A stretch of 56,370 nucleotides of DNA from an uncultured Myxococcales bacterium (lineage in GTDB: Bacteria; Myxococcota_A; UBA9042), in the NCBI GenBank assembly GCA_903955385.1, contig CAJBNH010000154.1:1-56370 (forward strand). The letters run 5' to 3'. Below the pieces are notes generated by a model. The model was given only the letters and a program-made list of their open reading frames with translations. It ran no database searches and was not told the origin of the DNA. Both the position numbers and the translations under genes were made by a program. Below are positions 40,285-45,397 of this stretch, piece after piece (position 1 is the stretch's first letter; every line of letters begins with the position of its first letter).

Positions 40285-40710
40285 CTAGTCGATGTCCTGC
40301 GCCTTGGTGTTGACGGCGATATCGGTCACGCCCTGCAGCCGCAGCAGGTCCATCAGCTGGATCACACTGCCGTGGGTCGCGTCGCGGTCGGCGCTCAGGA
40401 TGGCGGGCACCTTGGGGTCGGCCTTCGCGCGCGACCGGGCTTCGGTCCGCAGCTGGTCTGGGGTCGTCGGCTTGCCGTCGAGAAACAGCTGCCCCTGCTT
40501 GTTCAGCACCACCGACAGCGGCCGTGAGGGCTTGGCCTCAGCGCTGGCGGCAGCGGGCAGGTTCACTTCGACCACCTTGGGCGTTTGCATGGCGGCAATG
40601 CTGGTGCTGGTCAGCATGAAGATGATCAGCAGCACAAGCATGATGTCGACCAGCGGGGTCACGTTGATGTCGGCGACGATGTCGTCTCCGGAGTTCGTGC
40701 GGGCGGCCAT
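40285..40710 (-). CDS. exbD: ExbD/TolR-type biopolymer transport protein
   Basis: The 141-residue protein has one transmembrane helix near the N-terminus with the motor Asp in NVTPLVDIMLVLLIIFMLTS (Asp about 22) and a small periplasmic domain (LSVVLNKQGQLFLDG, ILSADRDATHGSVIQLMDLLR). It forms the proton-driven motor with ExbB upstream and energises TonB. TolR is the alternative; the TonB and receptor neighbours favour ExbD. Confidence 0.92.
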   Translation of the reverse strand: MAARTNSGDDIVADINVTPLVDIMLVLLIIFMLTSTSIAAMQTPKVVEVNLPAAASAEAKPSRPLSVVLNKQGQLFLDGKPTTPDQLRTEARSRAKADPKVPAILSADRDATHGSVIQLMDLLRLQGVTDIAVNTKAQDID

Positions 40711-40763
40711 GGTCTACCTCGTTCGGGGGGCGAGCAGTTCAGGATCCGGCGGCAGTACCAAGG

Positions 40764-41453
40764 TCAGGCGACGCGGCGAAAGGACGGCGAGCCTGCGTCG
40801 CCGCGAGGTGCCTCTTGCTTCGTCCACGCGAGCACGATGCCGGCCAACACGCGGGTATCGGCCTGCGCTTCTTTCACGCGAGTGCGCAGGTAGTTGAACG
40901 CGACCACGGCCGGGATGGCGACGAACAGACCGATGGCGGTGGCCACCAATGCTTCCGAGATGCTGGACATGATCGCCTGGTTGGCGGTCGCCGCGGCGGC
41001 ACCGGTGGCCAGCTTCAAGTCCGCGAACGCGCCCATGATGCCGATCACGGTACCCAGCAGACCGACGAACGGCGCATTCGAGCCGATGGTGCCCAGCCAA
41101 CCCAGCCGCTGGTCATACCGCTTGGACTCGGCCGCCTCGCGGGCGCCCATCACTTCCTCGACCGACGCCGAACCGCGGTGCAGCTCGGCGACGCCCGCCA
41201 GCGCGACCTGGGCCGCCATGCCCGAATACGGGGCCAGCAGCTTCTCGACGGCCTCGCGCCCCTCGTCCATGGCCTTCAGCAACGGCTGCTGCAGCTTCTC
41301 AACCGGTACGCGGTTGCGGCGCAGGAAGAGCAGACGCTCGACGGCAATCGCGACCAGAAAGACCGACATGAACATCAGCAGATAGAGAATCCACGCGGCG
41401 CCGAACAGGTCCAGCACTTGCGCGGTGTGGTCGACGATCTCGTGCGTCATCAT
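40764..41453 (-). CDS. exbB: ExbB/TolQ-type proton channel protein
   Basis: The 229-residue MotA/TolQ/ExbB-family protein has three transmembrane helices: AAWILYLLMFMSVFLVAIAV near the N-terminus and a C-terminal pair (APFVGLLGTVIGIMGAF and EALVATAIGLFVAIPAVVAFNYL). The conserved GLLGTVIG and EALVATAIGL stretches line the proton path. ATG 41453 has GAGGAG upstream; the next codon is also ATG. It is first in exbB-exbD-tonB-lipoprotein and divergent from the TonB-dependent receptor. Confidence 0.92.
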   Translation of the reverse strand: MMTHEIVDHTAQVLDLFGAAWILYLLMFMSVFLVAIAVERLLFLRRNRVPVEKLQQPLLKAMDEGREAVEKLLAPYSGMAAQVALAGVAELHRGSASVEEVMGAREAAESKRYDQRLGWLGTIGSNAPFVGLLGTVIGIMGAFADLKLATGAAAATANQAIMSSISEALVATAIGLFVAIPAVVAFNYLRTRVKEAQADTRVLAGIVLAWTKQEAPRGDAGSPSFRRVA

Positions 41454-41575
41454 CTCGGGCGTCTCCTCAATAGTTCGACTCGTCCTGCGCTTTGGATGCA
41501 TCGGCTGGCGGGCGGATGCGCAGCTCTTGCCGGGGCGGTACTTGTTGCGTCCTGCGGGCGTCCATCGACTTCCCC

Positions 41576-41603
41576 ACAATAGGCGGTTTAGCCGACTTGT
41601 CAA
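41576..41603 (-). promoter_or_regulatory. Predicted promoter of exbB-exbD-tonB
   Basis: On the minus strand a consensus TTGACA (41603-41598), 16 bp, TATTGT (41581-41576), leaving a leader of about 115 nt before exbB. Confidence 0.5.
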
Positions 41604-41634
41604 CCGGAACTTTGCACCATGTCATTTTTTGTCC

Positions 41635-41663
41635 TTGCCAAGGTCGACCCAACCGCCTATGTT
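41635..41663 (+). promoter_or_regulatory. Predicted promoter of the TonB-dependent receptor
   Basis: TTGCCA (41635-41640), 17 bp, TATGTT (41658-41663), about 45 bp before ATG 41708. It lies back to back with the exbB promoter, 32 bp apart, allowing shared control. Confidence 0.5.
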
Positions 41664-41707
41664 GTCCGTCGACAGTCGGCCCCACCCACCGGCTCAGGAG
41701 CCCCCGA

Positions 41708-44476
41708 ATGCACGTCGCAAGCCTTCGAACGCTGCACTATCTCGTTGTACTGGCAGGCCTTTCGGCCGCGGTTGCCACCATGGCGCAGACCCCGTCCCCC
41801 GCCCCTCAGAAGGCTGGACGACCCTCGCAAACAGGCGGTAAAGCCGGTTCAGACGGTTCGGTCGGTTCCGCGGACAAGACGGCGCCGGTGGTGGTGCCCC
41901 CCAAGCTGGTGCGCGACTCGCGGCCGGTGTACCCGCCGGTGCTGGCCGGGTCAGGTCAGGAAGGCGTCGTCGTCCTGGAGCTGGAGGTTGCCCCGGACGG
42001 TCAGGTGCGCGACGCCAAGGTGCTGACGTCGGCAGGCGAGGTGTTCGATCAGGCGGCGCTTGCGGCGGCGAAGGGGCTGGGCTTTGAGCCAGCGACGTCG
42101 AACGGCAAGCCTGTCGCCGTCAAGATTCAGTTTCGCTACCGCATTCGGGAGGATGCCAAGCCGGTTGCGCCGGTCGCCCTGCCCGCTGAAGCCACGGTTC
42201 CGGTCGCACCGGAGACGCCCCAGCCCTCTTTGGATGCGCCGCCCGCCGCCGAGGTTCGCAAGGGTGCGCGGGTGGTCGGTCGCGTGCTGGAGCGCGGGAC
42301 CAAGCGGCCGGTTGCAGGCGCGCTGGTGGTGCTGCCCGCGCACGAGATGGAAACGTACACCGAGAACGACGGCCGATTCGTGTTCGAAGGCGTCCCCGCG
42401 GGTTCCACACCGATCTTCCTGCCGGGCACCGACCATCAGCCGCTGCGGACGACGATTCGCGTGCCCCAGCAGGGCGAGGTCGAGACTGTGTTGCGCCCGG
42501 AGCTGAAGAGCTACGTGCTGTATCGCGCCTCGGCCGTCGCCCCTGCAGAGTCGGGAGAAGTCGCCAAGCGCACCATCTCGCGCGAGGAAATTGCCAAGGT
42601 TCCAGGAGTTTACGGCGACAGCTTCAAGGTCGTCACCAACCTGCCGGGCGTGGCGCGCACCGGCAACTCGGGCAGCGGCCAGATCGTGGTGCGGGGCTCG
42701 GCTCCCGGAGACACGCAGTCGGTGGTCGAGGGCGTCGAGATCCCGGCGCTGTTCCACTTCGGCGGCATCTACTCGGTCTTCAACACCGACTTCCTTGACG
42801 CCGTCGACTTCCAGCCGGGCAACCAGCCCGTTCGCTACGGTCGGCGCACCGGCGGCCTGATCGAGACGCGTCTGGCCATCCCCAAGCCCGACGACGGCTG
42901 GCGCACCGTCATCGAGGCCAACCTCTTCCACACCGGCGTGATCTCCGGCGGCCCGATTGGCAAGGACACGAACATCGCGTTGGCGGCCCGCCGGTCGTAC
43001 ATCGACGTGGTGCTGGACACGGTGGTGCCTGCGGGCGCCCTGCCATTCGCGCTGGCGCCCCGCTACTACGACTACCAGGCCAAGGTCGACCACCGGCTGT
43101 CGGCCAAGGCGTCGGCGACGCTGTTCCTGTTCGGATCCGACGACAAGTTCGAGGCACTGGTCGACAAGCCGCCGGCCGGCTTTCCCGATGCCCGCGGCGG
43201 CGTGTCGGCTGGCACGTCGTTCTTCGGCGGCTTGGGCGTGTTCCGCTATGCCGACAAGCACTTCCGCGCGCAGTCGACGCTGGGCATCGTGCCGCAGACG
43301 CTGAACCTGGGCGTGGGCGACGCGCTGAAGTTCGACCTGACGTCCACGCGCGTCACCTTGCGGCAAGACCTGGCCTACGACCTGGGGCCGGCGACGGTGC
43401 GGGGCGGCATGGACTGGCAGTGGCAACCCTATGAGATCGCAATCAAGTTGCCATTTTCCCCGTCGAGCCAGGAACCCGGTACCGGCGACACGGGGGCACC
43501 GGCAACCACGGTTGAGGTCGCGCAAAAGGGTGCGTTCTACTACCCCGCCCTGTGGCTGGACGCCGTGTGGCGGCCGACCAAGACGACCGAGGTCGTTCCG
43601 GGTGTGCGGCTCGACTACTTCATGAGTTACGAAGACCTGGCCGACGGCACCACGACCAAGAATCGCCTCGACTCGACCCTGTTGCCACGGTTGGCGGCGC
43701 GTCAAAAGATCGGCGCGAAGTGGACCGTCGAGGCGGCCGCCGGCTTCACGTCGCAGTCACCCGACCCGCAGCAGCTGGGCACCGCGGTCGGTAACCCGAA
43801 CCTGAAGGCGATCCATGGCTTCGAGGTCTCGACCGGCGTCGAGGGCCAAGTGACCGACGCGATTCAGGTCGAGCTGCAACTGTTCGACAAGACGCTGTCG
43901 GACCTGGTGTCGCCCAACCCCAACTGGCCGGCCAGCGGCGTATCGTACGAGAACATCGGCGAGGGCAAGGTGCGCGGCCTCGAGCTGCTGGTGCGTCACG
44001 CGCCCGTCGGCAAGTTCTTCGGCTGGGTCAGCTACACGCTGCAGCGCGCGACCCGCATCGATCGCCCGGGCGAAGTCGAGCGGCTGTTCGGCTGGGACCA
44101 GACGCACATCCTGACGGCGCTGGGGTCCTACAAGCTGCCGCGCAATTGGGAGATCGGCGCACGCTGGCGCTTCAGCACCGGCAGTCCGTACACGCCCGTG
44201 GTGGGTTCGACCTGGAGCTCGGACAACGACACCTGGTCCAACGTGTCGTCGACCTGCGTCAACTGCGAGCGACTGCCCGCCTTTCACCAGCTGGACATCC
44301 GCGTCGACAAGACGTGGGCCTTCGACTCGTGGGTGCTGTCGACGTACCTGGACCTGCAGAATGCGTACAACCGCGCGAATGCCGAAGGGATCACCTACAG
44401 CTACGACGCCCGTCAGAAGGTGTATCAGTCGGGGCTGCCGATCATCCCTTCGTTCGGGATCCGGGGTGAGTTTTGA
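41708..44476 (+). CDS. TonB-dependent receptor with N-terminal TonB-C-like domain
   Basis: The 922-residue outer-membrane protein has, after a signal peptide, a domain at about 55-140 that reads like a TonB C-terminal domain (VVLELEVAPDGQVRDAKVL, GLGFEPATSNGKPV). A carboxypeptidase-regulatory-like domain follows at about 180-250 (RPVAGALVVLPAHE, TENDGRFVFEGVPAGS). The plug domain is at about 270-390 (GQIVVRGSAPGDTQSVVEGVEIP) and a 22-strand-type barrel ends at FGIRGEF, a typical aromatic C-terminal residue. The substrate is not evident. It overlaps the last 35 bp of the convergent small gene. GGAG lies 9 nt before the ATG. Confidence 0.9.
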   Translation: MHVASLRTLHYLVVLAGLSAAVATMAQTPSPAPQKAGRPSQTGGKAGSDGSVGSADKTAPVVVPPKLVRDSRPVYPPVLAGSGQEGVVVLELEVAPDGQVRDAKVLTSAGEVFDQAALAAAKGLGFEPATSNGKPVAVKIQFRYRIREDAKPVAPVALPAEATVPVAPETPQPSLDAPPAAEVRKGARVVGRVLERGTKRPVAGALVVLPAHEMETYTENDGRFVFEGVPAGSTPIFLPGTDHQPLRTTIRVPQQGEVETVLRPELKSYVLYRASAVAPAESGEVAKRTISREEIAKVPGVYGDSFKVVTNLPGVARTGNSGSGQIVVRGSAPGDTQSVVEGVEIPALFHFGGIYSVFNTDFLDAVDFQPGNQPVRYGRRTGGLIETRLAIPKPDDGWRTVIEANLFHTGVISGGPIGKDTNIALAARRSYIDVVLDTVVPAGALPFALAPRYYDYQAKVDHRLSAKASATLFLFGSDDKFEALVDKPPAGFPDARGGVSAGTSFFGGLGVFRYADKHFRAQSTLGIVPQTLNLGVGDALKFDLTSTRVTLRQDLAYDLGPATVRGGMDWQWQPYEIAIKLPFSPSSQEPGTGDTGAPATTVEVAQKGAFYYPALWLDAVWRPTKTTEVVPGVRLDYFMSYEDLADGTTTKNRLDSTLLPRLAARQKIGAKWTVEAAAGFTSQSPDPQQLGTAVGNPNLKAIHGFEVSTGVEGQVTDAIQVELQLFDKTLSDLVSPNPNWPASGVSYENIGEGKVRGLELLVRHAPVGKFFGWVSYTLQRATRIDRPGEVERLFGWDQTHILTALGSYKLPRNWEIGARWRFSTGSPYTPVVGSTWSSDNDTWSNVSSTCVNCERLPAFHQLDIRVDKTWAFDSWVLSTYLDLQNAYNRANAEGITYSYDARQKVYQSGLPIIPSFGIRGEF

Positions 44477-44696
44477 CGTCCGGCGGCGGCGGAGGCGGCG
44501 GCGGAGCCCCGTGGTGGAAGGCTGCCTCGCGCTGGGCGTACACGTCGGCCAGCTGCACCTCGAGGCCGCGGACCAAGGCGACCACTTCGTCGGCGTCGGC
44601 GGTGCCCAGCTCGCGGAACAGGTGCTCGCGCTCTGCGTACAGCGACTCGAGCTGCGTGGCCATGTCGATTTCCGGGGGCTTGGGGCGGGGCGTCAT
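44442..44696 (-). CDS. Small hypothetical protein, helical with poly-Pro tail
   Basis: The 84-residue soluble protein has a predicted helical or coiled-coil core (about 12-60: [37 protein letters not shown]). It is followed by eight prolines in a row and a basic end. GAGGA lies 6 nt before ATG 44696, supporting translation. It overlaps the receptor 3' end tail to tail and is divergent from the HTH-PYP gene with a strong inverted repeat between. Unknown family; possibly a target of that regulator. Confidence 0.6.
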
Positions 44697-44707: not shown

Positions 44708-44738
44708 GACGGCTACGGAGAACACAAGCGTAGCCGTC
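44708..44738. promoter_or_regulatory. Perfect 10-bp inverted repeat, candidate operator
   Basis: GACGGCTACG (44708-44717) and CGTAGCCGTC (44729-44738) are exact reverse complements separated by 11 bp, so half-site centres are 21 bp (two helical turns) apart. It is placed in the 122-bp divergent region next to the HTH-PYP gene, as expected for a dimeric regulator site. A hairpin role cannot be excluded. Confidence 0.55.
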
Positions 44739-44818: not shown

Positions 44819-45397
44819 ATGGTAGACGAAATGGACGATCTTCTGACCACCCAGGAAGCCGCGGAACGGCTCGGCGTTGGCCCCACCACCATCAAACGAT
44901 GGGCGGATGAAGGACGCATCGAGGCCGTCCGAACCCTGGGCGGTCACCGCCGGTTCACGGTCGATTCGGTCGAAAAGCTCCATCGGCTGGAGGTGGGCGA
45001 CGCGGACGCCGTGCACGTCGTTCCGGAAGGGCTGGCGCGCATGACGTCTGCCGAGATCGACGCCCTGCCGTTCGGCATCATCGGTTTCGACGACGACGCA
45101 CGCATCACCGTCTACAACCGCGCCGAGTCCGACTTCGCCCGCGTGTCGCCCGAAAGGGCGGTCGGCAAGCACCTGTTCGGCGAGCTGGCGCCCTGCATGA
45201 ACAACCGGCTGGTCTACGGCCGCGTCATGGCAGCCATTCGTCAGGGCGAGATGGATCTGGAGATGGACTACGTGTTCTCGTTCAAGATGCGGCCGCGCGC
45301 GGTGCGGTTGCGCTTCTACCGCGACCCGGCGACTGCCACGAACTGGCTGGTGGTGAAGCAGCGCCCGTCGGGTGCCGACGCAGGGACGCTGGAGTAG
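44819..45397 (+). CDS. HTH regulator with photoactive-yellow-protein-type PAS domain
   Basis: The 192-residue protein has a MerR/excisionase-type winged HTH (about 8-57: [36 protein letters not shown]) followed by a PYP-type PAS domain (about 75-185). Aligned without gaps to Halorhodospira PYP, Tyr99, Glu103, Cys126, Tyr151, Phe153 and Met157 match Tyr42, Glu46, Cys69, Tyr94, Phe96 and Met100. They include the thioester Cys that carries p-coumaric acid and both hydrogen-bond partners. Thr50 and Arg52 are not kept. It is likely a light- or redox-responsive one-component regulator. The chromophore could be absent, since no ammonia-lyase gene is nearby. Confidence 0.85.

Follow-up and report, generated by a model that had tools for sequence, protein, structure and literature searches.

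Light striking photoactive yellow protein (PYP) isomerises its chromophore, and Glu46 gives up a proton. In the resulting signalling state the N-terminal cap (about 25 residues) detaches. Where the signal goes from there has been an open question since the protein was discovered, and the 2025 survey of the family names signal transmission as an important gap (PMC12826048). That survey covers 984 PYPs and another covers 789 (PMC9664959), and the fusions they describe join PYP to phytochrome/kinase, GGDEF/EAL, MCP, V4R, REC and PAS-kinase parts. The main texts of both contain no mention of MerR, HTH or helix-turn-helix, and that of the 2025 survey none of DNA-binding either, while the supplements may list such proteins. 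Only proteins of >200 aa count as multidomain in the 2025 survey (PMC12826048), so the 192-aa protein described here and several of its relatives would be passed over.

Light-controlled DNA binding in a single small protein is known from CarH and LitR, which join a MerR-type helix-turn-helix (HTH) to a B12 photosensor. Wx9EH is one of two CarH signature motifs (PMC8156234), and operons that respond to light under LitR control typically contain RudS, photolyase and carotenoid genes (PMC11417400, PMC9758184). The literature on PYP together with MerR, helix-turn-helix, CarH or one-component transcription factors yielded no protein that combines an HTH with PYP. Class III LitR, which is light-responsive and lacks B12, was considered as a hidden HTH-PYP and rejected, as the part of the literature consulted gives it a C-terminus resembling no known domain.

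Here we describe such a fusion in a 56,370-nucleotide stretch of DNA (the window) from an uncultured Myxococcales bacterium. Beside it lies a gene for a small protein that accompanies the fusion wherever we found it (Table 1).

Results

Table 1. Features of the locus, with positions in the window
Feature	Position	Strand	Basis and remarks
TonB-dependent-receptor-like gene	41492..44476	+	ORF as listed, true start probably downstream; type by direct sequence reading
Small coiled-coil-like partner gene, 84 aa	44442..44696	-	Divergent from fusion gene; match 44469-44696, E=3.5e-29; ATG start at 44696, ORF reaches 44807 with TTG start
Candidate operator, perfect inverted repeat GACGGCTACG-N11-CGTAGCCGTC	44708..44738	.	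In the 122 bp between the divergent genes
HTH-PYP fusion gene, 192 aa	44819..45397	+	ORF; coding-type GC3; same architecture in 9 other genomes
HTH domain, residues 8-53 (HTH_17/MerR/BldC-like)	44840..44977	+	Pfam, NCBIfam
Linker, residues 54-68, running into the equivalent of the PYP N-terminal cap (residues 69-82)	44978..45022	+	Alignment; low model confidence
PYP domain, residues 69-181	45023..45361	+	PDB matches, NCBIfam, alignment, Foldseek

When the fusion protein was compared with all PDB sequences by phmmer, PYPs made up the top 33 distinct sequences. Ppr-PYP (1mzu) matched residues 74-180 at E=1.8e-18 and Halorhodospira halophila PYP residues 69-181 at E=1.7e-17 (mutants up to 3.3e-18), both gap-free. 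The gap-free alignment that an earlier note on this DNA had put at 58 positions or more thus extends over residues 69/74-181. The pocket residues named there are borne out, with Tyr99 equivalent to Tyr42, Glu103 to Glu46, Cys126 to Cys69, Tyr151 to Tyr94, Phe153 to Phe96 and Met157 to Met100; Trp119 is kept too. The NCBIfam model TIGR02373 (photo_yellow) scored 97.3 bits (E=6.4e-28), under its equivalog cut-off of 143. A score under that mark does not decide membership, as the model picks up only about 20% of PYPs (PMC9664959).

The earlier note had also seen that Thr50 and Arg52 of H. halophila PYP are replaced, and took this to mean that tuning or chromophore use may differ. The replacements are real, with Ala at position 50 and Val at 52, but ordinary: Ala50 and Leu52 are the consensus of 984 PYPs, and those with Ala50 have their absorption at 435-465 nm (PMC12826048).

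Fold modelling gave a PYP fold. The AlphaFold model, built from a thin alignment of four sequences, has pLDDT 76-92 over most of residues 71-180 and about 60 near 151-160. Foldseek put PYP structures at the top (E=7e-12, TMt 0.88; Ppr-PYP TMt 0.92), with other PAS domains behind at TMt about 0.7 or less. By sequence, modelled fold and triad, the C-terminal domain is a PYP, and it is predicted to bind the chromophore. The HTH part of the model is of low confidence because the alignment rows hold no HTH.

The N-terminal assignment therefore comes from profiles, which agree with the DNA-binding HTH proposed earlier. Pfam places HTH_17 (E=8.9e-14) and MerR (5.8e-10) on residues 8-53 and PAS on 76-164. 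HTH_BldC (NF033787) matched at E=1.1e-16 and 60.4 bits, under its cut-off of 77. Below the PYPs in the PDB ranking, the N-terminal part drew BldC-type DNA-binding proteins and the cobalamin-binding regulator 8jbs. Among homologues that share only the HTH, 10 of the 12 classified are of the Wx9EH CarH/LitR type, and within the phylum the full-length proteins closest to it in the HTH are regulators of the CarH/LitR type.

Homologues with the same domain order exist, as the earlier note had thought worth checking. Searches of 52 genomes of the class, 379 of the phylum and two orders gave 11 fusion genes in 10 genomes, spread over three families of one phylum. The members are the window genome, G049, G041 and G051 in the window's own family, G173 and G489 in family f45, and G055 (a tandem pair), G257, G147 and G163 in family f16. 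The window protein is 40-50% identical to the others. In H. halophila numbering, all aligned fusions share Tyr42, Asn43, Glu46, Gly59, Phe63, Pro68, Cys69, Tyr94, Phe96 and Trp119; the G489 protein, 98.5% identical to that of G173, stands outside this alignment. Met100 is kept in 10 of 11 and is Val in G257. Loss of the Cys/Tyr/Glu set among homologues, named earlier as a sign of a non-photoactive sensor, occurs in 0 of 11 fusions. Pairwise dN/dS is 0.11-0.35, a rough range with high dS in some pairs, and the fusion is under purifying selection. In G055 the HTH-PYP genes form a tandem, overlapping, diverged pair (L052:8347-9623), which suggests hetero-oligomers or two differently tuned sensors.

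In a PYP tree the fusions group with PYPs carrying CxNN and do not form one clade, and the G147 and G163 proteins fall, without strong support, with stand-alone clade-C-like PYPs. One fusion followed by HTH losses, or two fusions, would produce this picture, and the tree does not separate them. Among 398 Pseudomonadota genomes there were 4 PYPs and 0 HTH fusions. Plasmids gave PYP-only matches (Caballeronia, Methylobacterium and others) and no HTH-PYP fusion, and none was found in phages. One plasmid match in Calothrix that spanned the HTH and more was set aside as an IS607-type HTH, as it lies beside an IS605 OrfB transposase. At L045, L047 and L050, PYP is the C-terminal part of longer ORFs, which measure about 240-290 aa in L045 and L047; a coiled-coil-like stretch precedes it, and no output domain was recognised.

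The conserved partner gene was absent from the earlier note's reading. It lies directly beside every fusion (the window, L022, L023, L024, L051, L052, L053, L054, L055 and G489) and encodes a helical, probably coiled-coil protein of 70-118 aa with the core motif QLxxLYxERxxLxRxLGTADAxxIIAMVRSLExQLVxLY. Its orientation relative to the fusion is divergent, convergent or co-directional depending on the locus, which argues for function and not mere operon inheritance. A dN/dS of 0.23-0.42 supports its being a real gene. Searches of Pfam, NCBIfam and PHROGs placed the protein in no family, and no PDB match was significant. In G055 and G257 a conserved gene follows directly after it (L052:9042-11712, L053:8691-11417), whose product combines a DUF455 (ferritin-like) domain with a C-terminal part of ATP-grasp-like appearance.

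The distribution of the partner follows the PYP. A profile search of the 379 phylum genomes recovered it from all 9 fusion genomes of that set and, beyond them, only from G105, with one marginal match in G123 (E=2e-4). Among 184 genomes of the order of G173 it occurs only in G173, G489, G105 and G485. G105 and G485 have stand-alone PYPs of a related type, so that among about 490 phylum genomes the partner is confined, the marginal G123 aside, to genomes with the fusion or with one of these two PYPs. It was not found in Pseudomonas and Pseudoduganella genomes with CxNN PYPs. In G485 the partner gene lies immediately upstream of the PYP gene. There the coil gene, PYP, an ORF without a family and a CheA-like kinase are all co-directional (L115:1-4825), possibly a complete signalling operon of a stand-alone PYP that uses the coil protein. 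The short ORF after this PYP was considered as a CoA ligase and rejected, as it matched no NCBIfam family. In G105 a coil-repeat protein gene lies about 4.5 kb downstream of the PYP (L056:12986-13714); it encodes 242 aa in which the coil motif occurs about three times, and an unannotated 481-aa protein is encoded between it and the CxNN PYP. Because the coil protein follows the PYP and not the HTH, the simplest reading makes it a partner for this PYP clade in dimerisation or regulation.

The region between the two divergent genes holds the only perfect inverted repeat in the window with arms of at least 10 and a gap of 3-20; none is expected in shuffled sequence, with up to 3 mismatches allowed. 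The repeat was not found at the relatives' loci or at the carotenoid cluster of its own genome. As it is not conserved at the relatives' loci, it is a lead and not proof. The 11-bp direct-repeat consensus of CarH is absent from this intergenic region, and a search for consensus sigma-70 promoters found none.

In three relatives, light-response genes adjoin the fusion. In G147 the fusion gene faces, in convergent orientation, an operon made up of a crtI-family desaturase, a squalene/phytoene synthase-family gene and a second crtI-family desaturase (TIGR02734, 517 and 356 bits; PF00494, 123 bits), and genes for a class II photolyase (PDB match 1.4e-57) and for DUF1722 and SOUL proteins come next. 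G163 keeps the same carotenoid genes up to the contig end. In G055 a TudS-DUF1722 (RudS) gene lies directly upstream and runs into the tandem fusion genes. The window itself contains no light-response gene in its 56 kb. An orthologue of its TonB-dependent-receptor-like gene precedes the fusion in 4 of 4 genomes of the window's family and is at most a candidate member of the system. The product of that gene has an apparent TonB C-terminal-type domain near its N-terminus, and ExbB/ExbD-like genes lie nearby (40285-41603, minus strand).

Elsewhere in the window's genome, a cluster (L122, G000:C180:2000-21000) contains crtI, a phytoene-synthase-like gene, a Wx9EH CarH-type regulator and an ECF-type sigma factor, an arrangement that recalls the Myxococcus car system. 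Since this carotenoid cluster has a CarH-type regulator of its own, the HTH-PYP of the window probably serves other targets, the first of them probably its own divergent promoter.

Chromophore supply gave a less favourable result. The earlier note had pointed to a tyrosine ammonia-lyase (TAL) and a p-coumaroyl-CoA ligase (pCL) as genes to look for. The single aromatic lyase of the window genome has the RSHA motif of histidases, no TAL was found there, and none of its CoA ligases scores over the cut-off of TIGR02372, the model for PYP-type pCL. This absence of a clear dedicated route to p-coumaroyl-CoA is the main weak point of a photoreceptor reading. Missing supply genes are usually explained by environmental uptake or broad-specificity enzymes. 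They are also usual within operons, since only 5% of pyp operons contain TAL and 32% pCL (PMC12826048).

A histidase-type lyase (RSHA or RSHS) occurs in 9 of 9 fusion genomes searched. Only G173 among these nine has a second, TAL-like lyase (RYHG), whose best NCBIfam model is tyrosine ammonia-lyase, below cut-off; the AMP ligase nearest to PYP-type pCL lies close to it. The surrounding cluster (L113, G173:C65:156000-172000) comprises the TAL-like gene, a CoA ligase, a thioesterase, an FAD oxidoreductase and a ketosynthase. It looks like an aryl-polyene/flexirubin-type pigment cluster and could also supply p-coumarate.

Discussion

We read the fusion as a one-component blue-light transcription factor of CarH-like design that has a PYP sensor and works with a coiled-coil partner, and give this reading a probability of roughly three in four. 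The light-switched regulator proposed in the earlier note is supported, light sensing being predicted from sequence: domain order and pocket are kept in 10 genomes, the nearest non-PYP relatives of the HTH are Wx9EH CarH/LitR-like, and light-response genes adjoin the fusion in three relatives. The PYP fold, the low dN/dS, the coil gene next to each fusion and next to the stand-alone PYP of G485, and the inverted repeat that is unique in the window speak for the reading as well. Chromophore binding, a photocycle, the direction of regulation and the targets are what we infer. Counted against the reading are the missing TAL, the lack of a pCL over cut-off, the TIGR02373 score, the lack of a light gene in the window, the separate CarH-type regulator of this genome's carotenoid cluster, the unconserved inverted repeat and the absent CarH direct repeat.

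In the proposed mechanism, Cys126 would carry p-coumarate through a thioester bond, with Tyr99 and Glu103 as the chromophore's hydrogen-bond partners, in a PYP domain that a short linker joins to a CarH/LitR-like HTH. Light would isomerise the chromophore, and the signalling state would loosen the N-terminal cap exactly where the HTH attaches. Because of this attachment, photoactivation should alter the position or pairing of the HTH. This would change how the protein binds DNA, or how its HTH pairs, at an operator close to its own divergent promoter and, in relatives, at light-protection genes. The coil protein would be a dedicated partner, either a dimerisation aid or a light-dependent co- or anti-regulator. 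By analogy with CarH/LitR we tentatively picture binding and repression in the dark and release in the light; the reverse is possible. As to origin and output, we lean towards a CarH-type chassis refitted with PYP in place of its B12 sensor, acting directly on DNA with an undescribed dedicated coiled-coil partner.

The domain could instead be a non-photoactive ligand or redox sensor, detecting free p-coumarate or coumaroyl-CoA, another thioester or thiol-reactive stress via Cys126, with the HTH as regulator. The genome's lack of TAL and PYP-type CoA ligase would fit, and some Ppr-PYPs, though ones that have lost Cys69, are proposed to have undergone redox neofunctionalisation (PMC9664959). We consider this unlikely, as the whole photochemical pocket is retained beyond the Cys (Tyr42, Glu46, Tyr94, Phe96, Met100, Trp119), light-response genes lie beside the relatives' fusions, and pyp operons in general seldom contain TAL or pCL.

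Even less probable is a photoreceptor that uses its HTH for anchoring to DNA or in an architectural role, in the manner of BldC, excisionase or RacA, and not for switching transcription, its output passing through the coiled-coil protein. BldC and excisionase-type models do score highest on the HTH, the protein is short, and the coil gene accompanies two stand-alone PYPs that have no HTH. Against this, the nearest full-length HTH relatives in the phylum are of CarH/LitR type, and three fusion loci have light-response genes beside them. That two unrelated pieces were called as one ORF, or that the gene is decayed, has nothing in its favour beyond draft, fragmented assemblies and is refuted by homologues, given identical architecture in 10 genomes, coding-type GC3 and dN/dS well below 1.

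If the one-component light-regulator reading is true, two small genes hold a complete path from PYP to gene expression. Having an HTH fused to the PYP, together with a candidate operator and just one conserved partner, makes PYP signalling directly testable in vitro. At about 190 aa, the protein would be a very small DNA-binding protein under reversible control by blue light, which would interest optogenetics. It would also exemplify sensor exchange on one regulator chassis, from B12 to p-coumarate.

The likeness to the PYP family (clades A-C; PMC9664959, PMC12826048) lies in the complete domain, Tyr42/Glu46/Cys69, the aromatic pocket and Ala50; the fusion adds a DNA-binding HTH and a dedicated coiled-coil partner gene. 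CxNN is common to the fusions and the clade-C-like PYPs of Pseudomonas and Pseudoduganella, most of which stand alone; unlike clade C, the fusions keep Phe96 and Trp119. Ppr and Ppd (PYP-phytochrome-kinase and PYP-phytochrome-GGDEF-EAL) also use PYP as the input domain of a multidomain protein, and Ppr-PYP is the nearest solved structure to the PYP domain of the fusion. Their PYP is N-terminal and their output is a kinase or c-di-GMP, whereas in the fusion PYP is C-terminal and the output is DNA binding.

The short LOV protein PmSB-LOV and the class II LitR PmlR2 (PMC9758184) likewise have a blue-light PAS-type sensor governing a MerR-type regulator of light-protection genes. There sensor and regulator are separate and flavin-based, whereas HTH-PYP is one polypeptide with PYP. 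Finally, CarH and LitR share with the fusion a related N-terminal HTH, the small one-component design of a light regulator and, at three fusion relatives, nearby light-response genes. The fusion lacks Wx9EH and has PYP in place of the four-helix bundle and B12-binding domains, and a reversible photocycle is expected where CarH undergoes irreversible photolysis. Without the B12 domain the fusion protein is not a CarH or LitR, but it probably works like one.
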